Position numbers and translations under genes: made by a program. 64,000 bases of DNA from Nereocystis luetkeana (taxonomy: Eukaryota > Sar > Phaeophyceae > Laminariales > Laminariaceae): positions 10,320,528 to 10,384,527 of the forward strand of contig JARUPZ010000015.1 in NCBI GenBank assembly GCA_031213475.1, in the 5' to 3' direction. The notes beneath the pieces were generated by a model. That model was not told where the DNA came from. It did not search any database and saw only the letters and a program-made list of their open reading frames with translations. The first letter of the stretch is position 1, and each line of letters begins with the position of its first letter. Below are positions 9,671 through 49,238 of the stretch, piece after piece.

Positions 9671-9674
9671 CACG

Positions 9675-10083
9675 TTTTTTTTTTTTTTTCTTTATTCCAG
9701 CTCGTTCTTTTTCAAGTGTTGGCCACCTCGCCTGCGGGGGGGGGGGGGGCTCGACAGATTGTCTCTCCTAGTTGTTTCTTTTTTTTCTTTTTTTTTTCTC
9801 TTTCGATTTGTCTACTTTGTTTTTGTGTTCTCTTTGATTGTTTCCTTTCGTTTCTTTATGTCATAGATTGTGTATGTCGTGCCTGTCGTATCTAGTATGA
9901 TCACATGGCTTTGCATTGACCACTGCAGTGCATACTGCACACGTGGCAACGTAGTATCTCTGTGGCGTAGCTTTGTGACCACATAACTTGTATCTCTTCT
10001 AGGATTGGAGAATCGGCACGGACACTGGTTGTGCTGGATGTCGACGGGTAAAAAGAACGGTTTAATGTGAAGAACACACACAT
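9675..10083 (+). mobile_element. LINE 3'-UTR copy B (severely 5' truncated)
   Basis: Starts within the 3' UTR at CCAGCTCGTTCTTTTTCAAG, carries the G run, and ends in GTTTAATGTGAAGAACACAC like copies A and C. At 10002-10020 it keeps the uninterrupted sequence AGGATTGGAGAATCGG, an empty site for the MITE found in copy C. Confidence 0.75.
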
Positions 10084-12250: not shown

Positions 12251-12252
12251 TG

Positions 12253-12522
12253 GGGAAGTGGTACCGGGGGGTCCTTGAAGCAGCCGAACGGTTCATGGTG
12301 AGGTGGCACGAGGCTGAGGCTGAGATGAGTAGGCAGCGCCGTGCATCCGCCGTGGATGGTGCCCAAGGGAACGGGGGGGGAGGGGGCAACAGGAGAAGTG
12401 GCAGAAAGCCCGACCGAGGGAATGCGGAGAGGGGGGGGAACAGGAGGGGTAGAAGGGAAACGGCGGTAGACGAAAGTAGGAAGGAGATGGCAGACAGGGT
12501 AGCAAGGCACCAAGTCGACTAG
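12253..12522 (+). pseudogene. LINE reverse transcriptase, C-terminal remnant
   Basis: Encodes GKWYRGVLEAAERFMVRW and the Gly/Arg-rich tail ending RVARHQVD, the same as in the 762-1160 fragment with few substitutions. It begins at the truncation point and ends at a TAG, and lacks every catalytic RT motif. The close match with copy A implies recent amplification of the family. Confidence 0.65.
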
Positions 12523-13334
12523 AAAGTAGAACATGACCATACTACTAGTGCTACCAACCGGTGCAGCTGGTTCGAACGTGGTCTTCCCTTGTCTTCTCTT
12601 CTTGTTTTTGTTTTTTTTTCTTTCTTGCGCTGACTCTCCGTGATTTTCATGTTATTTTTTTCTCTTCGTCTTCCTTTTCTGATTGATAAGCCGTACTGAA
12701 GGAGCCGTGTGGCGTGGTGGTTGGAAGACGAATCTGCTCTGCTCGTTTCGTATTGTCTGACGCCAAGGGGCTGGGCATAGTTGACGAACGCAGGGCGGAG
12801 ACGGCAGTCTGGGTAGCAAGGTACCAGGCGGATTAGCAAGGAGAACCTGGCTAACTTACTCGTACCACAAGCTGCTGCCGTCACCTGGAAGGTGCTTTGG
12901 GCTTTGGTCTGCCTGTTAATTCCCCTTTGTTATTTTTCCTTGTTACTTTTTCCCTTGGTTCTTTGTCTTACTCTGTTTCCAGGCAGTGGTGTTTTTTCCT
13001 ATTTTATTTTATTTTCCTTCTTTTCTCCAGCTCGTTCTTTTTCAAGTGTTGGCCACCTCGCCTGCGGGGGGGGGGCACGACAGATTGTTTCTCTTACATT
13101 TTGGTTTCATTTTTCTTCTTTTTCTTTTTCGATTTGTCTACCTTGTTTTTGTTTTCTCTTTGATTGTTTCTTTTCGTTTCACTATTTCATAGATTGCGTA
13201 TGTCGTGCCTGTCGTATCTAGTATGATGACATGGCTTTGCATTGCCCACTGCAGTGCACACTGCACACGTGGCAACGTAGTATCTCTGTGGCGTAGCTTT
13301 GTGGCCCCATAACTTGTATATCTTTTAGGATTGA

Positions 13335-13730
13335 ACAGACAAAACGGAAAAATGGGAACGAAACAAAAAATGGGAACGGACGGTTTTTTTTAGAAAGCAA
13401 ACCAATTGTGTACAACTCCAAGAAAAAAAGTTGACAGTCCTGTGGGGCTGTACAGCAGCCTTCGAATGAGCTGTCGCTCAGGCTGGAAGTCCTCGGCATC
13501 GCCGCGGTAGCCAGCATCTAGAGAAATCACAATAGAGCCAGCGTATATCGCTTTTTGCGCCCACCCGAAGGCACGAGATGGAGCATGACCGTTCTGACGA
13601 GCTCCTCTCACAGGGCTGGCCAAGGGGTTTCGCAGGATCATTTTGGTTCTCTGATACACCACATGGTTCTGGAGATACGGCTTGGTTCTCATTTTAGGCT
13701 TCGTTCCCATTTTTCCGATTTGTCTGTTAA
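13335..13730. mobile_element. 396-bp MITE (copy 1) with 5-bp target duplication
   Basis: Left end ACAGACAAAACGGAAAAATG and right end, read inverted, ACAGACAAATCGGAAAAATG form ~20-bp TIRs. ATTGA flanks both sides (13330-13334, 13731-13735). The homologous position in LINE copy A (1949-1953) has a single ATTGA and no element, so the insertion boundary is directly visible. No ORF of note. Copy 2 is at 48168-48561 in inverted orientation. Confidence 0.8.
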
Positions 13731-13815
13731 ATTGAAGAATCGGCACGGACACTGGTTGTGCTGGATGTCGACGGGTAGAAAGAACGGTTTAATGTGAAGA
13801 ACACACACACACTGC

Positions 13816-20551: not shown

Positions 20552-20940
20552 GTGGTCTACAGCAGTTCAGAATGTGTGCACCCCCGTCTCTGGCCTGGGC
20601 AGTTTGAATGCTGTGCTGCTGCTGCTTCTGCTGGTGACGAGGTGCTGCTGCAGTGATATTGCCTCTCTTTCCTTGATGCTCGTCGAGGTGCAGCAATACA
20701 AACTATTCGTAGTGAGCACTGATGTATTTTGTTGTCCAATAGTTCAGCACTTTGGAAAATATTAATACATCAGTGCTCACTACGAATAGTTAGTATTGCC
20801 GCATCTCGGTGAGCATCACGGAGAGAGAGGCAAGATCACTGCAGCAGCACCTCGTCACCAGCAGAAGCAGCTGCAGCACAACATTCAAACTGCCCAGGCC
20901 AGAGACGGGGGTGAACACGTTCGTAACTACTGCTGTGTGG
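20552..20940. repeat. Near-perfect 177-bp inverted repeat (hairpin)
   Basis: Arm 20552-20729 and arm 20764-20940 are reverse complements with only scattered mismatches. They share CACCCCCGTCTCTGGCCTGG, CTGGTGACGAGGTGCTGCTG and ACTATTCGTAGTGAGCACTG. The spacer is ~34 bp. A transcript would form a long double-stranded stem. Frames across it are incidental. It could be a foldback MITE, or a small-RNA source. Confidence 0.8.
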
Positions 20941-24167: not shown

Positions 24168-25484
24168 GTTGTTGTTATCACATTAAGTCACAATACAATG
24201 CAGTCCGTGGTCGCAGGGCAGGCTCCAATAACTCTGGAGTGGAAGAAATACCTCGATAATAGTGAAACAGAGGCAAAAACAAGAACACAGCATACGCACT
24301 CCACCACTACGGATACCAGGGAAGCAAAAAGGGAACTTAGCAGACAAGAACCTAAAACAGAAGATGAATCAAAACAAGAACAAACGCAGATAGCAAAAAA
24401 CCGCAAAAAAAGGCAAAACGGGCCATACTAACAGAGACACAAAGAGGTACAAACGGGAAAGAAAGAAAGACAAAAGAAGGAACAAAAAGGGACAAACACG
24501 GGCGGGGGGGAAAGAAAATACGAAAGGCAGGCACTGGAGCATACAGACACGCAAAGTTGCCCAGGTGGCACCATGCTAGTTTCTTGGGTCCCAAAGAAGA
24601 GAGTGCATCATGACGATGATGGCCATAACCAGGCTTCAGTCTGTTGGGCAGACCGCCTCCCCCCCCAGTTCCCCCTCGTCCCCCTTTCGCCTCCCCCCCT
24701 CTTCCCTGCCATTCTGCGCAGGCGCGTTGGTGTCAACGGTTTCGGTCGTGGTTTCAGCTATTCTATGCCGTTCTGCCGATGCCTCCTTCTCATCTCTATG
24801 TTTTTTTCGCATGAAGGCCTCCGCCCCTTCCTCGACCCGTCGGAACCATCTGCCGGCTTTCTGTGCTGCCTCGCACCACCCTTCGGGCTTGATGCCGAAC
24901 TCCTTGAGATCCTCCTCAAGGTGCCTCATCCAGTCCCACTCTTGCCCTCCGGAGTAACCCTTACCCCCAACCATCTCCCCAAACATCACCCTCTTCGGCA
25001 GACTCTCCTGTCCCATGCGTGTCACAAAGCCCGAAAACAAGAGCCTACGTCTGCGTACCGTCGTCTCAACGCTCTCATATTTTGTCCTGAGAAGCGCGCT
25101 AGCATAGGATAGAATGTCGTCTTCGCGCTTTCGTTTTCGCCAGCCGATGCATCGGAGGAGCATCTTGTGGTGGGCCTCCCGTAGCCTACCGTAATCAGTC
25201 TTACTCGGGCTCCAAGTAACGCAACCGTGGAGCGACGTTTCGATCACCTCGGCTCTCAGCATTCGCACCTTCAGGCGTAGGCGCACACCCGGGCGGTCAT
25301 AGATTTCCATCTTATACTGTCCGAAGCATGCCCATACCGTCTGGAGTCGACGCGTTACCTCGACTCTTCTGCCCGTCCAATCTGCGCTGATAACCCCGCC
25401 CAGATACACAAACTCGGTAGTTTGTTTGTACACTTGGCCGGCTGCGGTGACGGTGAACGGCACGTTCCCCCCATCTTTCGTCAT
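24168..25484 (-). mobile_element. 5'-truncated LINE copy E
   Basis: Contains the C-terminal part of an RT ORF (24636-25484), a ~450-bp 3' UTR, and a 3' end reading TTAATGTGATAACAACAACA on the minus strand. That end is related to the TTTAATGTGAAGAACACAC end of copies A-C but has an AAC rather than a CA tail. Both sides are GATGATCA satellite, so the insertion site is inside repeat S. Confidence 0.7.
24636..25484 (-). pseudogene. LINE reverse transcriptase, C-terminal third
   Basis: The open frame reaches a stop at 24636-24638. FVYLGGVISADWTGRRVEVTRR is the conserved block found after the RT palm in many LINEs. It is followed by KMEIYDRPGVRLRLKVRMLR, LHGCVTW and HHKMLLRCIGWRKRKREDDI, then WDWMRHLEEDLKEF near the end and a basic, Gly/Glu-rich tail. 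The catalytic palm lies upstream of the truncation and is absent. The first few codons up to 25508 translate satellite DNA, so the apparent ATG is not a native start. Intact over ~280 codons, hence young, yet incapable of retrotransposition. Confidence 0.8.
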
Positions 25485-26604
25485 ATGATTGATGATGACG
25501 ATCATCATGATCGGTGATGACGATCACCAGGATTGATGACGATAGTCATTATCGGTGAGGACAACGATATTCATGATTGGTGATGGTGATCACCGTATGA
25601 TCGATGAAGTCAACTATATCGTGAAAGGTAGTGGTCTTGAGGACGTGGTACACACAGCACAGGACGCATCGGTCGCTAGTCGAGCGTGTCCATCTGCTTT
25701 CAAGCATGTCGGTCAGAAGTTAAGCACCATCATCGGTAAAAACATTCTAGCGTATCAATCGAGAGTCGAGCGCGTCTGTACGAAGTCAAGCGCATCAGTT
25801 GGTTTAGTCAAGCGTGTATCGGTTTGAAACTCGAGCATATCGGTCGGTGCGTCTGCAAGGAAAATAACCGACAATGACCGATATTGGAGTTCTGAGGACC
25901 AACGCCCCAAATGGTAGGGTGGACCGTAACTGGACCAAGTCCGGCGGGAAGGCCTCATAGCCTCGGTTTTTGTTAGTGGGTGAGCTCGCGCAAGTCCCAC
26001 ACTACCCGGGAGAGATGACTCTTCAGGGTGGCTCTCTCCACCGCACCTCCCCTTCTCGGGGATCAGGTCGGGTCAACGTGCCCAAGCGCCAGTAGCAACA
26101 GCAGCCTGCGCTAATGTTGTAACTGGAGCTATAATAGGTTAAATTGACACACGATACGAGAACGAACGTAGAAGTGTGGTGCTTTAAGTTTACCAATCCA
26201 CCCGAAGATTATTGATTTTTAGTAACAATGGAGTTCCAATGAATTTAAGCCTTCTGGTGCGGGTAATGTTTGTATGTTGACCAAATGCAGAGGTCGATAG
26301 TCAAGCGTGGTCCAAGCATGCCGGTTAGTAGTCGAGCGCGCCGGTCAGTAGTCGAAGCTATCCGTCGTTCACGTAGCGTATCAGCCGGCAGTCGAGCGTA
26401 GCGGTCGGTAGTCAATCACACAGGTCGAAATTCGAGATTATCGAGCGGTAGTCGAGCGCACCAATCGGAAATCCATACAGATAACAAAAAATGGAGTAGT
26501 TCCAGTGACGTTGTCGCGTTCTGGTTTGGATCGTTTTTGTTTCTACATAAACGAAGCGCACAGGCAGTCAACGATGCCGATCGGTACCCGAGCAGGGTTC
26601 TACA

Positions 26605-34881: not shown

Positions 34882-35070
34882 TGTTATGATACTGCTTTGT
34901 ATGAGGTTGAAAGCCCGGTAATTACCCCAGGTTCTGGCACTGGGATCGTATTTGTAATACTTGGAAGGCGTATCTTAGGTGAAAAACCAGGGGTTTTCCA
35001 GAGAGGCACGAGCGTGGTCTCAGTTTCCGTCGTGCACGAAAAGAGTAAAGCTACTCTTCTATCTCTAAGC
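34882..35070 (+). repeat. Left LTR
   Basis: Begins TGTTATGATACTGCTTTGTA and runs to CTCTAAGC. It matches 49051-49238 with roughly 15-20 differences, including the GGGATCGTATTTGTA and GGGGTTTTCCAGAGAGGCAC blocks. It starts with TG as LTRs usually do. The downstream primer-binding site is not recognisable to me. Confidence 0.85.
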
Positions 35071-35201: not shown

Positions 35202-36960
35202 ATGGAGACTCATGAGGAGGGAGGGTCTGCTTCCCCTCATGATGGAAGAGACACTGAGGCCTAGAGCCCCTCAATGCCCCACCGCCCAAATCTCGTCGAT
35301 GGAGATCGAGCGCCTTGTACACACCACCAAGCGGAGCGTGTGTCTCGGCCGGAGCCCCATGATGACGGCGTGGATCGCGCGCCTTGTACAACACACCCGC
35401 ACGAGAGGCCCGGGTTGGAGCCGCTAGACGAAGCTCGAGCAGCTTCCGGCAAACGGCCCGGGTTCACGACCTTTCCGGGCCTTCTCGCTCGCCGGAATGA
35501 GCTCTACCGTCCAAGCCACCTGGCTCCGCTGAGAGCGTTGAGCCAGCTTTTTCTGCTCTGGGCCGGAGCGCGTCGGACTCTTCGGAGCGCGTGGCGCGCG
35601 TAACCAGCCAGGCCTTGGGTTTTGCAGATCTTACTCCCCACTCGTGCCCTCTGCCGTCCAAGCCACCTGGCTCCGCTGAGAGCGTTGAGCCAGCCGTTTC
35701 TGCTCTGGGCCGGAGAGCGTCAGACAAACCTGGACGTAGCGCTTTTCACGCCACCCAGCTGCGCTTTTCGCCGTCGGATCTACCTGCTTCTGGGCCAGAT
35801 GAGAGAGTGATTGAGACTCTGTTTCCGCCTCGCACGATTCCACTGCTGCCCTACCTCGCTCGTACGCGTACGATAGCCGCGAGCGATGCTGCCACTCGCG
35901 ACTTTTTCCCGCAACGCGAGCGCACGATGCGATTTTTCCCGTGCCTGAGTCACACGATGACGCACTGGATTTCAGTATTGAGCACGCTTCCCTCATTGCT
36001 GTAACTGCAAACGGCGATACCGCGTGGAAATTCCGTACTGCTGCGCGTTTTAATACTACTGCTGTTAGAGGGGGCAATGCGGCCGCTCATGGAATGCTTT
36101 CCGCGCCTCGCCCACAAGACGGCACACAGGATTTCAGTATCGAGCCTACTTCCCTCGCTGCTGTAGCAACAAACAGGGATCCTGGCAGCTCCAGTACTGC
36201 TTCGAGCTTTACTACTGCTGTTAGAAAGAGCGAGGCGGTCGCTCGTGAAGACTCCCCCACTCCTCGCCCACAAGACGGCACACTGGATTTTAGTATTTCA
36301 CCCGCTTTGCCCGCTGCTGTGACCACCCGCGCCGATTCTGCTGAGCGTTCAAGTACGGCTGCGAGTTTTAATGCTGGTGTTAGAGGGAGCGATATTGTCG
36401 CTCGTGCATGTTTCTCACGCCTCGCCCACAAGACGGCACACTGGATTTCAGTATAGCACCCGCTTTGCCCGCTGCTGTGACCACCCGCGCCAATTCTGCT
36501 GAGCGTTCAAGTACGGCTGCGAGTTTTAATGCTGGTGTTAGAGGGAGCGATGCCGCTCGTGGAAAGTTTCCCACGCCTCGCCCACAAGACGGCACACTGG
36601 ATTTCGGTATTGCGCCTGCTTTGCCCGCTGCTGTGACCACCCGCGCCGTTTCTTCTGTTTCTAGTACGGCTGCGAGTTTTGATGCTGCTGTTAGAGGGAG
36701 CGATATGGCCGCTCGTGATTTTTTCCCACGCTTCACCCACAAGACGGCACACTGCATTTCAGTAGTGCACCTGCCTTTTCCTCTGCCGTAGCCACCCACG
36801 CCGATTTTGCTGGAACCTACAGTACTGCCGCAAGTTATGAGGCTGCTGTTAGAGGGAGCAAGACGGCCACTCGTGATTTTTTTCTGCGCCCTGCCCACAA
36901 GACGGCATCGTGGAGTTCAGTATTGCGCCTACCTTACCCGCTGATATAGCGACCCGCGAC
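35202..36960 (+). pseudogene. Retrotransposon Gag, N-terminal repeat-rich region
   Basis: The first ATG after the LTR in a good position (35202) opens a frame METHEEGGSASPHDGRDTEA that meets TAG at 35262. The same frame then stays open to 35601. Continuity across frames 0, 2 and 1 is shown by conserved blocks (two copies of LPSKPPGSAESVEPA at ~35507 and ~35657, then 52-residue repeats). Composition is Ser/Ala/Pro/Arg, predicted disordered. This is probably the Gag leader of the polyprotein. At least three frameshifts mean it is not translatable as one chain here. Confidence 0.5.
35800..36955 (+). repeat. 156-bp tandem repeat encoding a 52-residue unit
   Basis: CCCACAAGACGGCA recurs at 36111, 36267, 36425, 36581, 36736 and 36894, with an older unit near 35955. 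Spacing is 155-158 bp. In frame, each unit reads like RPQDGTLDFSIAPALPAAVT followed by STAASF-AAVRGSD-AAR. The 156-bp (52-codon) period keeps frame. The 155- and 158-bp steps break it and are the decayed units. Confidence 0.8.
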
Positions 36961-37073
36961 GATTCTGCTGGAAAATGTCGTGCTGAGAAAATAATAATAC
37001 TGCTGTTGGAAGAGACGATCTTTTCTATTGCCTCCCCAGTACCGGCGACGTACCTGCACCAAACACACTTGAT

Positions 37074-38348
37074 GTTAGTACACGTACAAACCGTGACGAC
37101 CGCATACCTTTCGCGCCACCTTCTGGGGTCGATGCTGGCTCCCCGAGCGCTCGTAGTGCTCGCCGAATGGCTCGCCAAGGCTTGATCACCGCTAGACAAG
37201 TTGCTGAAGCACAAGCCGCAGATACAGCCACCGCAGCTCCCTCGTTACACCACCCTGAGTACCGCCGAATGCCGCCTCCTCCGGCCCCGGTGTACCCCTC
37301 TGCCCCGGTGTCCTCCCCTGCCCCGATGTTTATCGCCCGTCCCCGACTCAGCATGTCACGGACAGCAAAGGGAAAGAAAGAGTCCCCCAGCCCCGCCAGG
37401 TCTGCCAGTGGTCTGAGGACATACGGCCCCTCTCCCTCGTCGGGAGAGAGGACACCCCAGCTCCCGGGCCGGACGCATCTGGATGATGCTGTGGGCTACG
37501 AGGCCCGAGATTCCGAGGGCGAGGAGCGGACGGCGATGAAAGGCACAGTATGGGAGACGGTGCTGGACGGGAATCAAGCCCTGCCCCCCCAACTACCAGA
37601 GGCCTGGACCTCCCTCTCGGTCGAGGCTCAGGCTGCCCTCATCCGGTGCTGGTCAGACATTCCGGGCCTCGGCGTGGGGGCCACGGCCCAATGCTCGACC
37701 CCAGCTCAGGCCGACGCTGCCGCAGTCGAACGGTCAATTGCTGCCGCCGACGATCACCCCGACGTCGACGCGGCCGAACGGGCCTTGACTGCCGCCGAGA
37801 CCCTCGGGGCGGCCTCGGCAGCAACCGCCCGCCGTCGGGCGCAGGAGCTCACGGTGGCCGAGCATGAGACATCAGCGGTCGCTCGCACCGGCGCCGACGC
37901 TACCACTGCCTCGGGGACCGCAAACAGCGCTTCGAAGGCGGCCGCCGTGACCTCGGAGGACGCCGCGCTCTCCGCCTCCCCTGCCCAGGACTCCATATCC
38001 CGCGCCAGGGAAGCTCTGTGGGCTGCCCGGGCGGACAGCAGCACGAAGCTCCGTCGTGGTGCCGAGGCAAGAACCTTAGGGAAGCGCCTTCTCCATGCCG
38101 AGGCCGCGACAACGGCCACTCCAGCCCCCGGACTTAGCTCCTCCGCCACGCTCCCTCCTAGCGCGATCGCGGTCGACGCCCGGATCAAGCGTACCGGGGA
38201 TATGGATTTCTTCCAGGAGAGTGTCGCCTGCATGGCCGCCGGCCCAAATTCGTGCTTCCCCCTTGATGCGGCAGCGAGGGTTGTCTCTGCCGCTCGCCAG
38301 CTCCGACTGGATATGCCCGCGGACGACCTCTCCGTACACGACGCTTAG
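37074..38348 (+). CDS. Retrotransposon Gag, central Ala-rich segment
   Basis: Open from about 37074 (DVSTRTNRDDRIPFAPPSGV) through MARQGLITARQVAEAQAADT to a TAG at 38346. The first half is Pro/Ser-rich with PTYP-like linkers. The second half (from ~37600) is a long Ala-rich, Glu/Arg-spaced stretch (AAVERSIAAADDHPDVDAAE, ARRRAQELTVAEHETSAV) that should form extended helices or coiled coil. It ends with a folded-looking segment (MDFFQESVACMAAGPNSCFP). Position between LTR and capsid/nucleocapsid supports Gag. No internal start needs to be real, since the polyprotein was probably read from 35202. Confidence 0.6.
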   Translation, partial: VSTRTNRDDRIPFAPPSGVDAGSPSARSARRMARQGLITARQVAEAQAADTATAAPSLHHPEYRRMPPPPAPVYPSAPVSSPAPMFIARPRLSMSRTAKGKKESPSPARSASGLRTYGPSPSSGERTPQLPGRTHLDDAVGYEARDSEGEERTAMKGTVWETVLDGNQALPPQLPEAWTSLSVEAQAALIRCWSDIPGLGVGATAQCSTPAQADAAAVERSIAAADDHPDVDAAERALTAAETLGAASAATARRRAQELTVAEHETSAVARTGADATTASGTANSASKAAAVTSEDAALSASPAQDSISRAREALWAARADSSTKLRRGAEARTLGKRLLHAEAATTATPAPGLSSSATLPPSAIAVDARIKRTGDMDFFQESVACMAAGPNSCFPLDAAARVVSAARQLRLDMPADDLSVHDA

Positions 38349-38609
38349 CTCGCCATGGCGGGTGAAAATTGGATGCCCAGCAACGCCGGGGGCACCCCAT
38401 GGCTCTCGTGATAAGCCTGCGGCAGGCGCGCGACTTATGCTCCGCCACCGTTTTTAGGCCGACCCCGACGGAGTATGGGCGTCACTACAAGCGCCAGGCC
38501 GACCTCGGCGTCAAGGAACAACGGCTCCCGGACGTCGGACAGGGCTCGGGTCAGGCCCACGCCCCCTCCAACCCCCTCTCGGGCGATCGGGCTCACCGAC
38601 CCCCGGGGC

Positions 38610-39453
38610 ACCAACACCGGGAGCCCCCGATAGCTATGGGGCCCGCGACCGCTCCTACCGTCGCGATGACGACCGGGACCACCGGCGACCAAGCATGGGG
38701 GGAGCCTCGGCAGGCCATGACGGCAGGGCCCGCCGCGGACAGGGTTCAAATCACGGCCGGCGCAAATTCCGGCGAAACGGGGCTGGACGAAACCGGGGCC
38801 AGGGGAAAGACAGCTCGAGCGACAGGCGAAACTGGAGCTACCGCCCGCGAGGAGACGCGTCGCAGGCAAACTCTTCGAGATCCTCCTCGGACGGCAGCAG
38901 CGAACGCCCCATTCCGGAGGTCAGTACTGCCTCCAAGAGGCAAGTGGTTCCCTCGCTGGCGGAAGTTGCTTCCTCCGCCGCGCTTCTTGGTCGCTTGACC
39001 ATGTCCGATAACCCCGCCATGCCCGTGTCGTCTAACTTTGCCCACGCTTGCACGACGGCGATCGACTCTGCCGCCGCCGCCGCGAAAAAGCACAACGCAG
39101 ACGTCCAACGGGCGTACAAACACCTGGGGCTGAAGGATATTTCACGCATTTCCGTTCTACCCTTTTCCTCCCCGATCAACCCTCCTGACGCCGCGCAGCA
39201 ACTTCCTCGTTCAGTGAAGGCCTCCACGTCTGATATTCTCATGATGTGCAACGATGGCAGCCACGAAGGCCTCAGTTCTACCGATTGGATCCCCGGTTGG
39301 GAGTACCCCCTCAAGAAATCCTTCGCGCGCGCCAACGCACCTGACAAGTCCACGACCGCCCCCCTCACTACCTTGATGGATGATGTTTTGGGCAGGCGTC
39401 GCGCGCCCTCGCAGCTGGATCGACGGGACCGGAGACGTTCACGCTCCTCCTGA
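38610..39453 (+). pseudogene. Retrotransposon Gag, basic RG-rich linker and capsid-like start
   Basis: In a frame different from the previous segment: GAPDSYGARDRSYRRDDDRD, RRGQGSNHGRRKFRRNGAGR, then an Ala/Lys helix (AIDSAAAAAKKHNADVQRAY) and WIPGWEYPLKKSFARANAPD. The Arg/Gly/Asp-rich part is consistent with RNA binding. It stops at 39451, but frame 0 takes over smoothly at 39420, so a 1-base indel near 39415-39425 is likely. Confidence 0.5.
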
Positions 39454-40271
39454 GGCTGCTGAGCGACCTCTTCGACCGCACCGACACGGGGGCCAGCTAC
39501 ACCAAGTTGCATAACTTTGGCGTACCTAACGGGACCCCCTTTTTCGATTTTAGCCGTGCTTTTTGAGGGGTGGTGCCGGCAGCGACGCGGACTGAGCGTG
39601 TTTTGGCACCGGGGGTGGAGGTGGTTTTGGAGGTTGTTCGGATGGAAGTGAACGAGCAGTTCCCCAGCTTGATGCCCACGCTGTACCCGGGAGTTTTAGC
39701 TACGGTGTCGAGGCCGTTTGGTACTTTGGACGCCATGTGGTTGGCTTTTGAGGCTCCCGCGAATAATAAGACATCTGCCATCAACGGCGAAACAAATGTT
39801 TATTTGCCTGCTTCTTCGAGGAGTGTGCGGTCATCCACCCCGTCGGGGGCCCGGCCCGCCAGTAATGGTCGCGGCCAGGGCCGGACGCTCCCCTGGTCGC
39901 CCGTTTGGCAGACGGGGTCGCGCAATAATCCGCTTGCGATGAACGTCCTCGAATCCATCCCTGACCGCCTCGACCCGTGGCTTGGCCCCTTTCCCCCTTG
40001 CCGGCCCCTAGAAGAACACCACTATGCTGAAGTTCACGCTGTGCGCATGTCCATCCAGACCGAGGACCGTTCCCTCTGGAGTGATATACTTTCATCGTCC
40101 GCCCGCGCGGCCGTCCTCAGCGAAAACAGAGGCTGTTTGAACTGCCACGAAGACTCACACTCCCTCAGACAGTGTAAGCCCCCCCTTCAAAACCTCAGCG
40201 GTATTCTCAACCCCGACCTCGAACTCTCGGCGACGACGGAGCGGCGTTCCGTCGTTGGCAAGAACGCATGA
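39420..40271 (+). pseudogene. Retrotransposon Gag capsid end and nucleocapsid (CCHC zinc knuckle)
   Basis: The frame opens STGPETFTLLLRLLSDLFDR and KLHNFGVPNGTPFFDFSRAF, a TGA follows near 39564, then VNEQFPSLMPTLYPG and AVLSENRGCLNCHEDSHSLRQC. The last string is a canonical CX2CX4HX4C knuckle (Cys at ~40136, His ~40160), the retroviral nucleocapsid motif that packages RNA. A short basic Asn/Arg/His-rich tail continues in another frame at 40268-40570. Domain order and the knuckle identify Gag with confidence. The stop and indel mark decay. Confidence 0.75.
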
Positions 40272-40570
40272 CCCGACACCGCCGCGAAAATAACTCACGG
40301 CCGAACAAGAACAACCACAAGAAAAACAGGCGTCGTTCAGGCCATTCGCGAGGGCAGCATCACGGCCAGGGCCACCGACAAGGTGACGGCTACAGCACAC
40401 ACGCGGAACGAGGGCACCAACAGTCTAACTCCGGCTACCACGGTGGTGGTTCGACCACCTCTGCCTCTTCTACCACGGCTCCCGCGTCGGGAGTTCGCTA
40501 CGGTGCCTCGCATAATTCGGACGGTAACCCCAACGGACGCCATCCGGGCACCTTCCGCGCCGGTAACTAA
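40268..40570 (+). pseudogene. Basic nucleocapsid tail
   Basis: TRHRRENNSRPNKNNHKKNR, then RSGHSRGQHHGQGHRQGDG and a Ser/Gly-rich end. It lies immediately after the CCHC knuckle segment in a shifted frame. High Arg/Lys/His/Asn content fits nucleic-acid binding. The frame ends TAA at 40568. Most likely the C-terminus of Gag after a 1-base shift near 40240-40265. Confidence 0.45.
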
Positions 40571-40949
40571 CAGGTCGACGGCGGTTCGGCTCCTCCTGCC
40601 CGCCCGCCGCCTGCATTGCCGGGAGACCATACATTGATTTCACAAGATACACGCGTCCCAGGCTCGCCCAACACTCAGCGTCGCCCTGCGCCGCGCCCCT
40701 CCCGCGCGTTCCTCCGTACTTGGGACCGACGCAGCGACTCAGCTCCACCGGTTCTACCGGGGAGTCCCCGGGCGTCTATGCCGACGTCGGGAGCCCGCGC
40801 CTCGAACGCCGCTTCCCTCCCTGGGCACGATAGCAGGCGAGATAAATGCCCCTCTCCCGAACCACGCACCGCGTGGCATCACGCGTGTCGCGCCGTCGCG
40901 TCGTTCTTTTCAGCGAGGGTGTTCCCCTCTTTCACCTCCCGGCCATGCG

Positions 40950-42170
40950 GTGGCGGTCGGTTTTGAGGTGCGGGAAGGCAAACACCAAAACCCCGAGATC
41001 TCGGTTAAACTCGGCTCGGCGTTTCCTCGCAATAACGGTGGCCGTTCAATCATTTTTCCTATTAAGGAAGAGTCGACAAGACTAGCTACCTCGTCCCCCT
41101 TCCCCACCAGGTCTATAGGACGGAAGCCCTCTCCGGTGGACCCTTTGTTGCCCCCCACCGGAGCACCGTTCTTGAAGTCGTCTACAGGGTCTGCAGGCCC
41201 TCTTTCGTCTTCGCGCACGCCACTCCACGTGCGCCGCGCTCCTTCGGCTCCAGTAGAACAGGAAAAACCTGGTACTGCCCGTCGAGCCAGAGGTGACTCC
41301 ACAGCCTCCGATCTGATCAATCAGACAGCATACACGTTAAGTTCGGAAGAATCGCAGCTCTCGTCAAGCAGAACGGGCTCAGAGCCCCCTGCCCCCTTTC
41401 GTCCAGGACAGAGATCATCGGGCGCAGGAAGAGAACCTTCTGGCGATTTTTTGCCTACGGGCAATGATGACACTGAGCCAGTATACGTGGAACCGGACTC
41501 GCCGCGTGCACGAGGGGCTCAGTGTTCTCAGAAAAGCACACTCCCCCCTACACACACCGCAACGGCAGCCACCGACGACTCGACATCTTCGGTATTTGAC
41601 CCTTCTCTCGAGTATTCAACGAAGCGGGTGGTGCTTTTCTGGCAGCCCCCCTCCTATTTCTCGCAGTGGTCCCCCTCGGTTTTTGTCATTGACGGAGTGA
41701 CATATTCCTGCGCGGAGCAGTATATGATGGCTGAAAAGGCTCGCCTTTTTCTGGACCACGACATAGCGGAGCAGATTATGGCCTCGCCAGACCCTCGCGA
41801 GCAAACACTCCTCGGTCGAGGCGTGTATAACGTCTACTACGCTACCTGGGACCGCCTTCGGGAAGACGCCGTCCTCGCTGGTTCCTTTGCCAAGTTCACG
41901 CAGAAGCCGGTCATGAAGTAGCACCTACTGAGCACTGGCAACAAAAGTTTGGCTGAAGACAGCCCTTTTGACTCCGTGTGGGGCATCGGTCTCCGGGCAG
42001 ACGACCCCGAGGCTCAAGACCCCTCTCGGTGGCGTGGCAAAAAGTTGCTCGGGAAAGCTCTTTCCGCCGTTCGCGACACCCTCCGCTCAAGTGAGGCCGG
42101 GCTGGCACCCCCCGCCTCTTCTCATCAATTCTGCACTCCGACCACGACTGACAGAATTCATGAGATTTCC
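40950..42170 (+). pseudogene. NADAR-family domain protein within the retroelement polyprotein
   Basis: Residues 1-215 are Ser/Pro-rich linker. The domain starts at 41622 (KRVVLFW), with YFSQWSPSVFVIDGVTYSCA then EQYMMAEKARLFLD, IMASPDPREQTLLGRGV, a WDRLRED block and FAKFTQKPVMK. An in-frame TAG at 41919-41921 follows. The same frame continues HLLSTGNKSLAEDSPFDSVW then GIGL, and WRGKKLLGKALSAVRDTL to ~42095. These blocks (DGv-y-AEQYmmAeKA, LGR, KFtQ, SPfDsvWGiGL, W-G-nlLG) match the YbiA/RibX/DUF1768 NADAR family, whose members are N-glycosidases in riboflavin-intermediate metabolism or remove ADP-ribose from guanine. Full domain length (~158 codons) is normal. It lies between Gag and protease. 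Confidence 0.8.
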
Positions 42171-42205
42171 CCAGCGCCGCCCCGCCTTTTGGCCGTGGAC
42201 CGCGC

Positions 42206-43162
42206 TTGCCTAGGCCCTCCCTTGGAGTTTCGACCTCTTTTTCTGACGCGCCGGCTGATCACAGCCCCGAGGTTTTGGCTGTCGCACCTGGTGCCGGCCC
42301 TTCCCTTGCGCTGCCAGAACACGGCCCCTGCCTCGTCAAGGGTATCAATACCTCCGATGACGCCTCTTTTACAACCAAAATCGCGATCCACAGCGGAGCT
42401 GGCGTTCTTGCACCTTTTGGCTGCGTGGCGCTTCTTGACACTGGCTCCCCACAGACCTTCATTCGGCAAGATGTTTTGGATCGCATGCTCACGGTTGGCG
42501 CGGCATCCATCGCTTGCGAGCAGAAGTGCGCCCCTCGTTCCTGGGGGGGGGTTGGCGAATCAACCCCTCTGAAGACATCGACGAGAGTGCGCCTGAGCGT
42601 CCAATGTTTTCGAGAAAATAAGCCTACGTGCCTCCTCGCAGTTTGGGCCTGTGTGCCCCCCCCCTCAGTGATGCGGCATGCAGTACTGATGGGGCGTGAC
42701 AGCTGGATGTGCTTTAATAGCCGCTCCTACCGCTCTCTCCCTCCTCGGCCGTCAGACCATCGCGTTTTTAGCGAGTTGGAGTTACTTCACCACACCCCGA
42801 CAGGCATGTCCGTGTACGCCATCGACCCCGCCGCTTCGGGTGGAGGCTTCCATCTCCGCTACGAGGGCGCGACAGGCGTCACCCTGTCTGACGATCCTCA
42901 ATTCCTTGCGTTTAATTTGGTTCGAAGCGATGGCTCCCCGGCACTCACTGGGCACTACTTGGTCGACATGATGCCCCAGTCCGACCTGCCCTCGGTTGAG
43001 GAGCACTTCGTCTCCTCCGGGCGACAGGTTCTTCCCCTCGTTGGAGTGGCGGCCCTCGAGCCTGGAGATATCCTCGGCGTCGTCCACGCCCCACGGCTAA
43101 GCCTTCCACTGGACGTTTTGCATCCGGACAACCGAGCCCCCAGCCCTCCCTCCGGACTCTGA
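42206..43162 (+). CDS. Retroelement aspartic protease (retropepsin-like)
   Basis: ALLDTGSPQTFIRQDVLDRM holds the catalytic D-T-G at residues 78-80 (GAC at 42437). The flap/ILG-type motif VLMGRDSWMCF follows ~100 residues later. The first ~60 residues are linker in a frame shifted from the NADAR region, so the visible start is not necessarily used. Downstream 150 residues (TGHYLVDMMPQSDLPSVEEH, PLVGVAALEPGDILG) form a spacer before RT. The enzyme would cleave Gag-Pol as a dimer in the particle. Motif residues are intact. The link to RT needs another frameshift near 43150. Confidence 0.8.
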   Translation: MPRPSLGVSTSFSDAPADHSPEVLAVAPGAGPSLALPEHGPCLVKGINTSDDASFTTKIAIHSGAGVLAPFGCVALLDTGSPQTFIRQDVLDRMLTVGAASIACEQKCAPRSWGGVGESTPLKTSTRVRLSVQCFRENKPTCLLAVWACVPPPSVMRHAVLMGRDSWMCFNSRSYRSLPPRPSDHRVFSELELLHHTPTGMSVYAIDPAASGGGFHLRYEGATGVTLSDDPQFLAFNLVRSDGSPALTGHYLVDMMPQSDLPSVEEHFVSSGRQVLPLVGVAALEPGDILGVVHAPRLSLPLDVLHPDNRAPSPPSGL

Positions 43163-44241
43163 GGTGGCTCCGGTCTCCGCAGTCACAACTTCCCTCGCAG
43201 CTCCAACCTCGCCCTCGCCTTCATTGCTTGAGTGTTTGAGTCCGGCACAGCGCGTTTCGTTCCTGGGCGTCTGGGCACGCTTGCCGCTGCATCTGCGGGA
43301 GGTGGTTTTTGACCTTCACGGCACGAACTGGACCCCTGAGGCCATCGAACAGCTGGGGGATGTTCTCTGCGATTTCCGGACGTTTTCTCGAAGTTCAAAT
43401 CTGATTTTGGTTCCTGCTCGTTGATGCCTTTCGTGATTTCGGTCCCGGAAGGAAGCGCTCCTGTCACGTCCAGGCCGCACCGCATCAACCCAATCCTGGC
43501 CAAGGAAGTGGAGGCCACCTTGGATCAGTATCTAGCGGCAGGTCTGATCCAGCACTCGACCTCTCCGTACTCGAGCCCGCTGGTGGTCATCCCGAAGAAG
43601 TCTCGAGGCGTTCGGATCATAGTGAACTACAAGAAACTCAACCAGATCAGCAACCTCAGCCAGCTGCCCGTTCCTCGCGTGGATCAAGTTCTCGACTCCC
43701 TGGGGAAGGGACGGGTGTTTTCTCTCTTCGATTTGGTCTCCTCGTTCCACGAAATTACGGCGCTCAAAGACACCGCCCCCCTCACGGCATATTGCACTCC
43801 TACGGGACTCTACGAGTGGCTCGTCATGCCCCAAGGCAGCAGTGCTTCGCCCAACTGGTTCGTCAAAATAACGAAGTCATCAAAGGCCTGGCACAGGTGG
43901 CGGCCTACCTCGATGATGTGATCGTCTTCGACTCTGATCCGACGGCCCACGTCGAGACGATACGAGCCCTTTTCGAACGCCTGCGCAAACACAACCTCAA
44001 GCTCTCCCCCTCGAAGGCTCGCCTCGGCGCCACGGACGCTAATTTTCTGGGCCACTCCATTTCGCCCGCGGGTATACGCCCCAATGCGGAAAACGTTTCG
44101 GCTTTGTTGAAAGTGCCCATGCCCAAGAACCTCAAGCAGGTCCGAGCATTGATGGGCGGCGTGGGATATTATCGCAAATTCCTGCCCGACCTGTCTAAAC
44201 GGATCCGGCCTCTTACTGCCCTCCTCCGGAAGGGGGTTTAG
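43155..44241 (+). pseudogene. Ty3/Gypsy reverse transcriptase
   Basis: Three frames are involved. Frame 1 (to 43424): VSFLGVWARLPLHLREVVFD before a shift. Frame 2 (about 43400-43865): SVPEGSAPVTSRPHRINPIL, SPYSSPLVVIPKKSRGVRI, VNYKKLN, FSLFDLVSSFHEI and LVMPQGSSASPNWFVK, which are RT motifs 1-4. A 1-base indel near 43866-43874, then frame 3: YLDDVIVF with the catalytic Y-L-D-D at 43906-43917, FLGHSISPAGI and RALMGGVGYYRKFLPDLSK. TAG at 44239-44241 interrupts just before RNase H in the same frame. Motifs are complete, the reading frame is not. Confidence 0.85.
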
Positions 44242-44799
44242 TACGTCTTTACGCCGGCCATGGACGTTATCGTTCGCCAGATCCTCGCCGAGCTCGCTGC
44301 CCCACCAATTTTGGTCTTCCCGGACTGGGGCGCTGTAGCCGACGGCTCCCGCCCCTTTCGCGTGTACTGTGACGCCTGCATGGACGGTTTTGGTGCCGCG
44401 CTTGAACAAGAACAACTGGACGGCTCGGTACGGCCCATTGCTTATATAAGCCGCGCTACTCTCGAGTCCGAGAGACACTGGACCCCGTTGGACCTTGGAG
44501 CGGACAGCATTGTCTGGGCTATCAAGCGACTCCGCGGCTACCTATGGGGGACAAAGTTTCGCATCTTTTCAGACCACAAGGCACTTGAGAGCATCGGCAA
44601 AGTAGGGGATCACAACGCGCGAGTCCAGCGGTGGCTCGAGTTTCTCACAGCGTTCGACTACACCCTCGAGTACCGCAAAGGCAGCGTCAACGGCAATGCT
44701 GATTTTCTCTCTCGTTTGCCAGAGCCGGCCACGGAACACGACCGCAGTGGGTCTAGCAGCCTCACACCCGTAGAGGATGGGGGTATCTTCCTCATTTAG
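44242..44799 (+). CDS. Retroelement RNase H domain
   Basis: In frame with the RT C-terminus after a single TAG. FRVYCDACMDGFGAALEQ carries the first catalytic Asp, RPIAYISRATLESERHWTPL the second block with Glu, and FRIFSDHKALESIG the third Asp. The domain ends with LEYRKGSVNGNADFLSRLPE, the classic Gypsy RNase H terminus. It removes the RNA strand during reverse transcription. TAG at 44797-44799 separates it from the integrase in the same frame, so one more nonsense change splits an otherwise continuous chain. Confidence 0.85.
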   Translation, partial: YVFTPAMDVIVRQILAELAAPPILVFPDWGAVADGSRPFRVYCDACMDGFGAALEQEQLDGSVRPIAYISRATLESERHWTPLDLGADSIVWAIKRLRGYLWGTKFRIFSDHKALESIGKVGDHNARVQRWLEFLTAFDYTLEYRKGSVNGNADFLSRLPEPATEHDRSGSSSLTPVEDGGIFLI

Positions 44800-47080
44800 G
44801 CCTGCGGGCTTCGCACTCGCTCTTCCCCGACCCCCGGTGTCGGTTTGAGTGGGCTGGTGCCCCGCATCGAACGTGCCGTCTTGGGTGGGCTGCCTTTCCC
44901 CCCTTCGGAGTTTCGCGATTTTCGCACACACGGGCCACGTATGAGGATTGACGACCTCTCTGCTCCTTGGGGGAGATTCGTCGCTCGTGCCTCTGCTTCC
45001 GTCGCCACCGTCGATCGCCGTCATGGCTTGAGGGTTTTTTCACCTGCCGCCAACACCGCTTTCGCTTCGGTTTTTGTCGTACCCTCCGGGGGCGACCAGG
45101 GCTCTGCAGAAGCCCCCGCTGCAGCGACGATTGTCGCCCAGCACGCTCCTCCCCCGACGTGCACTTTACAGGGCGAAGATTCCGCCGTGAGCACTGCTCC
45201 GGCCGCGTCAGTCCCTTCAGGCCAGGGCAATGCAGAAGCCCCCGCTGCAGCGACGACTGTCGCCCAGCGCGCTCCTCCCCCGACGAGCACTTTACAGGGA
45301 CAAGATTCCGCCGGGAGCACTGCTCCGGCCGCCTCTGCCCCTCGAGGCCAGGGCAATGCAAAAGCCCCCGCTGCAGCGACGATTGTCGCCCAGCGCGCTC
45401 CTCCCCCGACGAGCAATATTCAGGGAGAAGATTCCGCTGTGATCACTGATCCGGCCGCGTCTACCCCATCGCCGCCTGGCACCCCGGCGCCCACCAACGT
45501 TTTGCCGTCTTCCTGCCGCATCTCCACTCGGACGCGCCGACGAACGGCCGCCGCCGCTGGCTCCGCGCCGCCTGCTGTTGATTATGGCTTCGGGCCCGGC
45601 GGGGCCCCTAGACCATCCGCCCGGCGTGCTATCACCCCGCCGCGAGCCCCACGACCGCGACCGACCGCGCCAGTCGTTTTGACCCCGGCTCCTACCGCTT
45701 CGTTGGTCCCGACGGTACCCATCCCGTCCGACCGCGACCGCGCCGAGCCCGTGGGAACCCCTCTTTTACGGCTTCCGCTGCCAACTGACGAACCGCCCGT
45801 CCCCACGAAAGACTTCGACGCTCTCGGCGCAGCTGCCGACTTTCAATTTGGTGATTCTGCAGCGCGCTGTTCGCACACCGATTGGGCACGGGAACAACAG
45901 GCCGAGCCTGCGTGCAACGCCGCCATGCGCTACATAGCCCTTGGCCGGCCGGAATTTTTGCCAGCCGGCTTTTGGTCGTGTTTCCCTTCCCACCAGCTCC
46001 CTCCTTTTTCGGAGGTTCAGGAGCTGGCTACCAAAGGCCGTTTACACACTACCTACGCGGGCATCGTTCTACTCGTCCGGCAGCCGCCCCCCACCCCTGC
46101 GTCAGGCACGCAACGCCCGGTGGGTCGTGCGGCCTGTTCATTGAATGACGAGCCTATCCGCATTTATGTGCCGCTCCTCATGCGCCCTTGGGTCATGCAG
46201 GCTTGCCATTCCACGGCTTCCTGCCACCTAGGAAGAGCGCGCACCCTACGTATGCTCGAACGTTTCTACTGGTGGATCGGTATGAGCATCTGCACCCGGT
46301 GGTGGTTACGCCACTGCTTGAAGTGCCAGGCACGGAAAACGTCGCGGCAGACGGTCCGGTGGCCCATCATCACATTGCCCTTGCCAGAAGGGCCCGGCAT
46401 CGCCGTCAGCATCGACTATTTCGGCCCCCTCCCTGTGACGCCTCGAGGAAATATCTACATCTTGCTTTTCACTGATCGTTTCAGCCGCCGAGCCGACATG
46501 TACGCCGTCACTGCGGCAGAGTTCACCGCTGAGGGCACGGCTAACATTCTCATCAACCGGTATATTCCTCTCTGGGGGTGCCCGCGCAGCATCCTCTCGG
46601 ACAACGGCCTCCAATTCTGCTCCAAGCTTTCGCACGCCGTATATCAGCTCCTCGGGGTTCGAAAAATTGCCACCAGCTCCTACCACCCAAACGGCAACGG
46701 CGGGGTGGAACGTGTCAACCACACGATGGCCCAAACGCTGGCAATGGTCGTCAACGAGCTCCAGAACAACTGGGATGAACAACTCCCTCATGTCGAATTT
46801 GCGTACAACAATTCGGTCAGTGCCGCCACGGGCTTGGCTCCGAACGAGGTACTTATGGGTCGGCTGCCACGCCTCCCCCTCACGACTTTCGAGCGTGCTG
46901 GCGTCGCCGGCCACCAAACCTTGGCCCGCGACCACCTCGCCTATTGCGACTTGGCGATGGACCGCCAGCAGCGCGCGTATGATATCGTGCGCGAACACCA
47001 CGCCCTCCCTGTTGCCCGTGTCAACCGCCGCAACTCCGCCCTCACCGACGCTCTGCGTCCGGTCCCCAGGTTGACGTCGG
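44800..47080 (+). CDS. Retroelement integrase (HHCC zinc finger and DDE core)
   Basis: The frame continues directly from RNase H (ACGLRTRSSPTPGVGLSGLV). Numbering from the ATG-like codon at 44845: residues ~80-205 are three ~42-residue Ala/Pro-rich tandem repeats (GNAEAPAAATTVAQRAPPPT), ~205-330 Pro/Arg-rich linker, His455/His461 with Cys491/Cys494 the HHCC finger, then the catalytic core: Asp524 (SIDYFGP), Asp586 (LSDNGLQF) and Glu622 (GGVERVNHT), with 35 residues between the last two as required. EFAYNNSVSAATGLAPNEVL closes the core. After ~47062 the frame shifts. Catalytic residues are intact. Confidence 0.9.
45090..45465 (+). repeat. Three ~125-bp repeats inside the integrase N-terminal linker
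   Basis: Each unit contains GAAGCCCCCGCTGCAGCGAC, GCTCCTCCCCCGACG and GAAGATTCCGC. Units start near 45090, 45216 and 45342 and keep frame. The translation is a low-complexity Ala/Pro/Gln linker, so length variation here would be tolerated. Confidence 0.8.
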
Positions 47081-48049
47081 CGGCTGGGCGTGGGTGTACA
47101 ATACGGCGGCCACCATCCGCCAGGGGGAAAAACCCGACACGGACGCCAAGGCCCTCAAGGCCAAACTCTCACTCAACCGGACAGGCCCCTACACAGTTCT
47201 CGCAGTTGGCCCCTGCTCCGCAGCGGACACCCCGGACGGGTCTCCTCTTGGGGCCAAGCTTCTGTATTTGGATCTTCCTTTCGACATGCCCGGCGCGAAT
47301 GCCCGTCGGCGCGTTTCAGTTCAACGCTGCAAGCCCTGTGCCAACCCCCACGACCGTGGCGACATGCCGAAGTATTTGCCAGCGGGTTTGACGCAGTACG
47401 TGCTCAACAACTTATCCACGTCACCCAGGACGACGTCTCGACACCTCTTCACCGACTCGAAGTGGAGAAAATTACCGGACACCAATCGGTTCGAGGTCGA
47501 GGTGGCGTCATCGCAGTGATGTACGAGACGCACTGGACTGGACTCTCTCGTCCATCCTGGGAACGGGAAATGGACCTTCAGCTTTCTCGCCAAGCAATTT
47601 TGCGCTACTGGGCCGGCACCCCGAACCAGCATCGTCAATCCAACCGCCTGTACCGCCGAATGAGAATCGGCGAGGCACAACGGGAGCTCTCTCGGAATAA
47701 CGGCCAGCGGTTTCTGGCATCCGGCTATGGCTGCGTCTCGCACGCCGACTGGCTCCGCCGATACTGCAACACCGTGCTTCCCAACGGGGCCCATTTTTGG
47801 TACAAGGCCGACGACGGGCTGTGGTGGCTCGAGAAAATCAGCGCGACTACGCCCACGGATGGAGTATATTTGGTTCGATTTTTGGACGCCCCGGGACCGA
47901 TCAAGCTTCATCTTTTTCCGGCGCGCTACACGACTTCGACGAGAGCTGTACGTGGCTCTTGGTGTCTCCAAATTCACTTGGCTAGCGCATTTGCGCGGGG
48001 GGTCCAGTGTAACGTAGACGAATCTCGAGGCGCCGCCGTGGATAGCTGA
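47075..48049 (+). pseudogene. Integrase C-terminus: GPY-like region, chromodomain and Tudor-like tail
   Basis: In the frame open to 47519: VDVGGWAWVYNTAATIRQ, LKAKLSLNRTGPYTVLAVG (GPY/F-type module) and QRCKPCANPHDRGDMPKYLP. A shift near 47405-47425 leads to LEVEKITGHQSVRGRGG, AVMYETHWTGLSRPSWERE and QAILRYWAG (47453-47620), which has the chromodomain pattern (V-x-K-I, W-x-G, SWE, YW). The tail GAHFWYKADDGLWWLEKI then YLVRFLDAPGPIKLHLFPAR resembles Tudor/agenet folds. Chromodomains steer integration to marked chromatin in chromoviruses. The second fold may add specificity (inference). Confidence 0.7.
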
Positions 48050-48167: not shown

Positions 48168-48561
48168 CAGACAAATCGGACAAATGGGAACGAAGCCTAA
48201 AATGAGAACCAAGCCGTATCTCCAGAACCATGTGGTGTATCAGAGAACCAAAATGATCCTGCTAAACCCCTTGGCCAGCCCTGTGAGAGGAGCTCGTCAG
48301 AACGGTCATGCCCCATCTCGTGCCTTCGGGTGGGCGCAAAAAGCGATATACGCTGGCTCTATTGTGATTTCTCTAGATGCTGGCTACCGCGGCGATGCCG
48401 AGGACTTCTAGCCTGAGCGACAGCTCATTCGAAGGCTGCTGTACAGCCCCACAGGACTGTCAACGTTTTTTCTTGGAGTTGTACACAATTGGTTTGCTTT
48501 CTAAATAAACCCGTCCGTTCCCATTTTTGGTTTCGTTCCCATTTTTCCGTTTTGTCTGTTA
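48168..48561. mobile_element. MITE copy 2, nested in the Gypsy 3' region
   Basis: Reverse-oriented match to 13335-13730 across its whole length with ~10-15 substitutions. It starts CAGACAAATCGGACAAATGG and ends with the inverse of TAACAGACAAAACGGAAAAA. Subterminal direct copies of AAATGGGAACGAAG occur at each end. No clear target duplication is visible here. It is absent from the coding part, so it does not explain element decay. Confidence 0.8.
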
Positions 48562-49050: not shown

Positions 49051-49238
49051 TGTTATGATACTGCTTTGTATGAGGTTGAACGCCAGGTAATTACCTGGGT
49101 TCTGGCACTGGGATCGTATTTGTAGTACTTGGAAGGCGTATCTTAGGTGGAAAACCAGGGGTTTTCCAGAGAGGCACGAGCGTGGTCCCAGTCTCCGTCG
49201 TGCACGAAAGGAATAAAGTGGCTCTTCAATCTCTAAGC
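49051..49238 (+). repeat. Right LTR
   Basis: Direct copy of 34882-35070, beginning TGTTATGATACTGC and containing AATAAA (49212-49217), a possible polyadenylation signal. Its divergence from the left LTR indicates an old insertion, consistent with the frameshifted ORFs. Confidence 0.85.

Follow-up and report, generated by a model that had tools for sequence, protein, structure and literature searches.

A NADAR domain within the Gag-Pol polyprotein of Ty3/Gypsy elements in the brown alga Nereocystis luetkeana

The window analysed here is a stretch of 64,000 nucleotides from the genome of Nereocystis luetkeana (contig JARUPZ010000015.1, positions 10,320,528 to 10,384,527). It contains, on the plus strand, a Ty3/Gypsy element bounded by a 5' LTR of 189 bp (34882-35070) and a 3' LTR (49051-49238), which were paired by self-BLAST at 92%. 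The LTR starts with TGTTATGATA. An earlier note on this DNA, made from the letters alone, had described the element as lying inside matching LTRs. The pair is there, though it is aged, with 174 of 189 aligned positions identical and a K2P distance of 0.079; no target-site duplication was seen flanking it. The leader region carries a tandem array with a period of 158 bp and 5.9 copies (36035-36970, plus strand, found by TRF). The Gag region follows, with two open frames on the plus strand, 36987-38348 and 38458-39453, which are without a Pfam match. A pattern scan located a nucleocapsid-like CCHC zinc knuckle, CLNCHEDSHSLRQC, at 40134-40175 on the same strand, in the frame 39567-40271. This pattern is present in 11 of the 14 sibling loci scanned, and in one locus, L047, a stop lies within it. 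The GC content is about 0.60-0.62 across positions 36001-48000 of the element, compared with 0.45-0.53 in the preceding 36 kb.

Downstream of the knuckle and upstream of a DTG motif at 42437 lies a NADAR domain (PF08719) of the YbiA type, located at 41637-42086 on the plus strand and cut by an in-frame TAG at 41919-41921. The first half of the domain, in the frame 40638-41921, corresponds to positions 2-106 of the 163 positions of the Pfam profile (E 7.2e-21, 75.6 bits), and the second half, in the frame 41922-42572, corresponds to positions 111-163 (E 1.6e-15, 58.2 bits). Both halves are above the curated cut-off of 35.1 bits, and they form a single reading frame that is divided by this one TAG. 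The whole domain was also recovered as one match in the genome search (C15:10362164-10362613, E 6.0e-43). The earlier note had placed a NADAR domain at 41622-42095, between a CCHC Gag knuckle and a DTG protease. The two Pfam halves and the whole-domain match are significant and confirm the domain, while the pattern and motif scans confirm its position. The plus-strand direction that the note gave for all these parts also holds, but in the window the NADAR and the DTG motif are in different frames and the reverse transcriptase is spread over two.

The protease frame (42164-43162, plus strand), which is out of the NADAR frame in this copy, is without a Pfam match and is named by its DTG motif only. 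The reverse transcriptase (RT; 43340-44241, plus strand) is frameshifted and consists of two overlapping frames, 43340-43921 and 43405-44241, with RVT_1 E values of 7.5e-11 and 5.1e-09, respectively. It is followed on the same strand by RNase H (44242-44799, RT_RNaseH, E 5.7e-30) and by the integrase frame (44800-47391), which is composed of an H2C2 zinc domain (Integrase_H2C2, E 7.1e-12) and an rve core (E 2.1e-07) whose 31.5 bits are 1.1 under the cut-off of 32.6. The stretch between RNase H and integrase contains three repeats of 126 bp (45096-45473), to which the siblings align as well. The order protease, RT, RNase H and integrase between LTRs is that of Ty3/Gypsy elements; the assignment is made from this domain order, in which the protease is counted by its DTG motif only. 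We regard the anatomy described here, a NADAR-bearing Gypsy polyprotein between LTRs, as nearly certain. Because its LTRs are aged, a TAG lies inside its NADAR and its frames are broken, the window element is an old, inactivated Ty3/Gypsy copy, belonging to what we call family A.

Toward the 3' end, the element contains a MITE-like insert, about 387 bp long, with terminal inverted repeats (48168-48554, no strand assigned, right edge placed to within a few bases). Self-BLAST aligned it to a second copy in inverse orientation at 13334-13726 (98% identical), and it is absent from all five sibling loci that cover the site (L047 and L049 to L052). By this comparison, the insert is a later insertion into the Gypsy element. 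Elsewhere in the window, an open frame on the minus strand (24636-25523) resembles by eye the C-terminal part of a LINE reverse transcriptase and gave no Pfam match at E 0.01. Self-BLAST also detected a dispersed repeat of about 1 kb at 889-2030, 9674-10082 and 12251-13812, with main alignments 89-95% identical, and a segment at 20560-20932 that is 88.5% identical, along its full length, to its own reverse complement.

A NADAR profile search of the same 465-Mb genome gave 778 first-look candidates, of which 150 were scored, and all 150 passed the Pfam cut-off. Among these 150, in which a few rows from small contigs may be duplicates, 47 are in open frames of 2000-2428 amino acids with no stop in the match, and 20, including the window copy, have a stop inside it. 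The copies that were compared were drawn from the 150 best Pfam scores, a choice biased toward intact domains. The window NADAR and 62 other copies fall into five clades, A (21 copies, including the window), B (34), C (5), D (2) and E (1), whose representatives are 46-56% identical to one another. At the DNA level, the family A copies share about 91-95% identity with the window element in long stretches; one stretch in L052 is weaker, at 84%, and the LTR of L050 matches at 85%. Pairwise DNA identities within clades, taken over one part of the element, are 0.936-0.960 for A (10 pairs, the remainder of the 15 overlapping too little), 0.985-0.9985 for B (45 of 45 pairs) and 0.959-0.969 for C (3 of 3 pairs). 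Clade B has the highest identity and is therefore the youngest.

Surroundings were fetched for 25 of the copies, the remaining 37 being NADAR slices only. In 24 of the 25 (8 from A, 11 from B, 3 from C and one each from D and E), NADAR is followed by downstream element sequence, as judged by DNA or tblastn alignment. The coverage of the 25th, L033, extends only 1.5 kb past NADAR, and no DNA match was found there. Part of the protease region is unaligned in L035, and in L054 the protease and the integrase were recovered and the RT was not. The sibling L049 has the CCHC knuckle, NADAR and DTG in one frame, which is open continuously from NADAR through DTG, and in L045 (clade B) and L055 (clade C) Pfam finds NADAR, RT, RNase H and integrase all in one open frame. 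When L045 and L055 were used as tblastn queries, the same neighbours were found beside L096 and L097, which are one D copy and the E copy. When four natural polyproteins were aligned, NADAR stood out by its identity, with 0.51-0.52 per 50 residues and 0.42 at its end, flanked by poor stretches of 0.18 before and 0.26 after. From these alignments, NADAR appears to be a standing part of Gag-Pol in a Ty3/Gypsy lineage, located between the nucleocapsid knuckle and the protease.

A protein search with the window NADAR gave 416 matches at E <= 1e-5, of which the 120 best were listed. Among the matches listed, bacterial NADARs, such as that of Nannocystis, are 54-55% identical to the window domain. 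By eye, some ENA proteins also resemble it in their flanks: P0002 has a similar upstream tail and P0004 continues into a DTG protease. Among the 120 matches listed in a search with the integrase, 22 have RT and 6 have a NADAR detected by phmmer; at least six combine NADAR with rve, five of them from Ectocarpus sp. CCAP 1310/34 and one from ENA (P0158). The window integrase, used as query, aligns with P0123 over 77% of its length at 74% identity. In the listed relatives that have RT and are without NADAR, the sequence before the RT is no longer than 320 residues (320 in P0226, 233 in P0209), too short for a NADAR in an unspliced frame. An Ectocarpus NADAR compared with long proteins gave 18 matches, six of which have both NADAR and RT (P0123, P0195, P0242, P0245, P0248 and P0249), the other 12 having NADAR alone in the Pfam columns. 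The animal proteins P0243, P0244 (Patella) and P0252 (Oopsacas), of 866-958 amino acids, have NADAR as the sole Pfam domain listed.

Two trees were computed. In both, P0123 and P0195 of Ectocarpus sp. CCAP 1310/34 group with clade C (100/98), and the fork that joins clades A and C, including these two proteins, has support of 97/85 in the first tree and 98/83 in the second. Proteins P0246 to P0249 form a further NADAR clade. The first tree, which left out the short pieces P0158, P0162, P0204 and P0212 and in which translations of 13 of the 27 IMG/VR loci were placed, has the NADARs of the retroelements and the brown-algal host genes on one branch (92/77). In the second tree, which left out P0245 and the 13 IMG/VR rows, weakly supported forks separate clades B, D and E from A, C and the host genes. 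A constraint that holds all the NADARs of the retroelements together was not rejected (p-AU 0.101).

A NADAR in the same part of Gypsy Pol has been published for Ectocarpus, for example in Gypsy-12_Ec32, as stated in the accessible part of that report (Genome Biol 2025;26:320, PMC12477816). The combination of NADAR and Gypsy is therefore already known, and its novelty is below what the earlier note implied. Our literature search, outside of which preprints and the majority of subscription papers lay, led to this one paper on the subject among the papers listed. In the Ectocarpus lineage, as in the window element and its siblings, NADAR is N-terminal of RT, RNase H and integrase in a Gypsy polyprotein, and the two groups are related by integrase and NADAR through P0123 and P0195; Gypsy-12_Ec32 was outside this comparison, and P0123 presumably belongs to the published lineage, judging from its NADAR. 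The elements described here differ in that they reside in another genome, and the window's clade A is without any Ectocarpus row in the trees. A C-terminal chromodomain is reported for the Ectocarpus lineage in the text available (PMC12477816). In our siblings, the chromodomain profile PF00385 gave E 0.023 in L055, which is below the cut-off, and no match in L045. What is new relative to the available text of PMC12477816 is the presence of five NADAR clades in one genome, the selection estimates for each domain and the counts of retained active-site residues.

The NADAR domain of L049 was modelled with AlphaFold2 using 29 relatives (pLDDT 96.9, pTM 0.89). Foldseek aligned this model to 8BAU, the NADAR of P. 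nicotianae with ADP-ribose (E 2.1e-12, TM 0.84/0.76), and to YbiA of E. coli, 2B3W (E 2.8e-08, TM 0.76/0.78); the remaining 28 of the 30 listed matches are all above E 0.001. The domain of this sibling, modelled in place of the broken window copy, is thus predicted to have the NADAR/YbiA fold. Residues are numbered after the P. nicotianae NADAR, as given in the accessible part of its description (PMC11543638), and positions were matched by spacing, partial alignments to 8BAU and motifs. Eight ADP-ribose-contact positions were picked after inspection of the window copy. E43, K50, W89 and W133 are kept in all 62 other copies, R93 and D130 in 61 each, R79 in 60 and E125 in 59, and all eight are intact in 56 of the 62. 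Five further ADP-ribose positions are less kept, namely K75 (54/62), G78 (60/62), V81 (58/62), Y84 (1/62) and D86 (1/62); position 84 is F in 60 of the 62. In the window copy, the eight positions are kept together with G78 and V81; K75, Y84 and D86 are lost. The domain therefore shares the fold and residues E43, K50 and E125 with 8BAU and 2B3W, but contact positions 84 and 86 differ, and the entries compared have no retroelement polyprotein. The catalytic residue 125 is Glu in the window copy and in 59 of the 62 others, and K in three, which are the family A copies L034, L072 and L078. The mark of the YbiA subfamily is a catalytic Glu (E125 in P. nicotianae) and not Asp or His, according to the available parts of two papers (PMC11543638, PMC11125620). 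By its Glu, the window domain belongs to this subfamily.

Selection was estimated for each domain with a codon model. Pieces with a stop or of less than 80% length were dropped, the window copy and L043 being left out for stops; because broken and short pieces were removed, the row sets vary by domain from 9 to 14 copies. Across families, NADAR has an omega of 0.21 (14 copies from clades A, B and C) and the protease one of 0.18 (11 copies); the values for RT, RNase H and the integrase are 0.064 (11), 0.078 (11) and 0.057 (9), respectively. Omega = 1 was rejected for each domain (2dL 104-328), and 12 rows from all five clades gave 0.19 for NADAR. Between clades, synonymous sites have reached saturation (for NADAR, pS 0.78-0.83 vs pN 0.29-0.40), and the cross-family values are therefore approximate. 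Within clades, omega of NADAR is only mildly below 1, at 0.58 in A (20 rows, p 8e-5), 0.54 in B (33 rows, 30 of them distinct, p 0.004) and 0.47 in C (5 rows, p 0.02). NADAR is under purifying selection. The earlier note had held that many intact copies under such selection would support a functional module; both parts were found, in the 47 long open frames and in a cross-family omega of about 0.2, rough owing to the saturation.

Some retroviruses encode a dUTPase between nucleocapsid and protease, a position that resembles that of the NADAR in these Gypsy elements. Among other retroelements, Tx1 LINEs of Crassostrea gigas have a divergent NADAR in ORF1, as described in the accessible part of PMC12477816; these resemble our elements in carrying a NADAR but are non-LTR, and the comparison is by description only. 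DarT1-NADAR (DarTG1) belongs to the same superfamily as the window domain, and its tested members remove ADP-ribose from guanine (PMC11543638, available part). It differs in having Asp where the window domain has the catalytic Glu, and a search of the N. luetkeana genome for a DarT-type guanine transferase returned 0 candidates, with a control that matched in 1 of 14 genomes and with intron-split genes able to escape it. Other NADARs, as far as the available text of the two reports goes, reverse guanosine ADP-ribosylation on RNA (PMC11833690) and on DNA (PMC11125620). Like these, the NADAR of the elements may hydrolyse ADP-ribose from guanine bases. Made within Gag-Pol, it would be carried into the particle together with the element RNA and RT, and there it could keep the element RNA and cDNA free of ADP-ribosyl-guanine, which would hinder reverse transcription. 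To our knowledge, few natural NADAR substrates are known outside bacterial toxin-antitoxin systems. That a carried NADAR might strip ADP-ribose from the guanines of the element's RNA or cDNA is a tentative proposal, to which we would give somewhat less than an even chance. For the full explanation, in which a standing Gag-Pol NADAR enzyme has this cleaning role, we put the probability at about 0.5.

The earlier note had also allowed for all related copies being without the domain, so that the window would hold a single chance capture of a host gene. Free-standing NADAR proteins of Pylaiella, two Ectocarpus and Scytosiphon are indeed 53-58% identical to the window domain (among the matches listed), and a search for a host NADAR gene gave 937 candidates, of which 150 were scored; the rows listed, which all share 39-58% identity with the Pylaiella protein, are indistinguishable from element copies. 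Nevertheless, the related copies examined have the domain, and it occupies the same site in five clades and in Ectocarpus Gypsy proteins; we reject a chance insertion into one copy, the probability of which is negligible. An enzyme acting on other substrates is a different matter. Bacterial and plant NADARs are described, in the accessible parts of PMC11543638 and PMC11125620, as N-glycosidases that clear riboflavin intermediates, and the domain in the elements could detoxify riboflavin by-products or bind nucleic acids or metabolites, with no action on ADP-ribosylated nucleic acid. The two contacts unlike those of 8BAU, 84 and 86, agree with this, but most ADP-ribose contacts are retained. 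NADAR fusions of the PYRR type, which act in the riboflavin pathway, are defined by a fused deaminase or reductase domain. No such fusion, and no other riboflavin-pathway partner, was seen in the Pfam scans of the window and sibling frames, and we consider this reading quite unlikely.

Counter-defence, by which NADAR would remove ADP-ribose placed by the host on nucleic acid or proteins, or would destroy NAD-derived signals, so that the element escapes restriction, seems to us unlikely as well, although a little less so. Animal RNA viruses provide a parallel, as they have Macro or NADAR domains within polyproteins, together with a polymerase, for which host ADP-ribosylation is the proposed target (PMC9503650, accessible part); they differ in being positive-strand RNA viruses and not LTR elements, and no rows of theirs are in the trees. 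The higher omega of NADAR relative to RT could be produced by conflict, but the protease is as fast, and the speed of NADAR therefore requires no conflict. On the host side, one partial PARP-domain exon match was found in the genome (C20:9599331, E 1.1e-5) in a search whose control matched in 0 of 14 genomes, and this result and the DarT search described above decide neither for cleaning of the element's own nucleic acids nor for counter-defence. We know of no ADP-ribosylation-based restriction in brown algae. The likeliest role, in our view, is to free the element's own RNA or cDNA of ADP-ribose, and the next likeliest is counter-defence.

It is conceivable, though rather improbable, that a lineage of algal LTR elements depends on a packaged NADAR that would reverse the ADP-ribosylation of guanines in its RNA or cDNA by a yet-unfound host transferase. 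If so, an ADP-ribosylation-based defence against transposons would be implied in brown algae, and the faster change of NADAR relative to RT, together with its split into five clades that differ by about 50%, would mark an arms race. The domain has been kept through several family splits, and its copies in long open frames offer a natural test case. This suggests that some step in the life of these elements in algae needs the removal of ADP-ribose.
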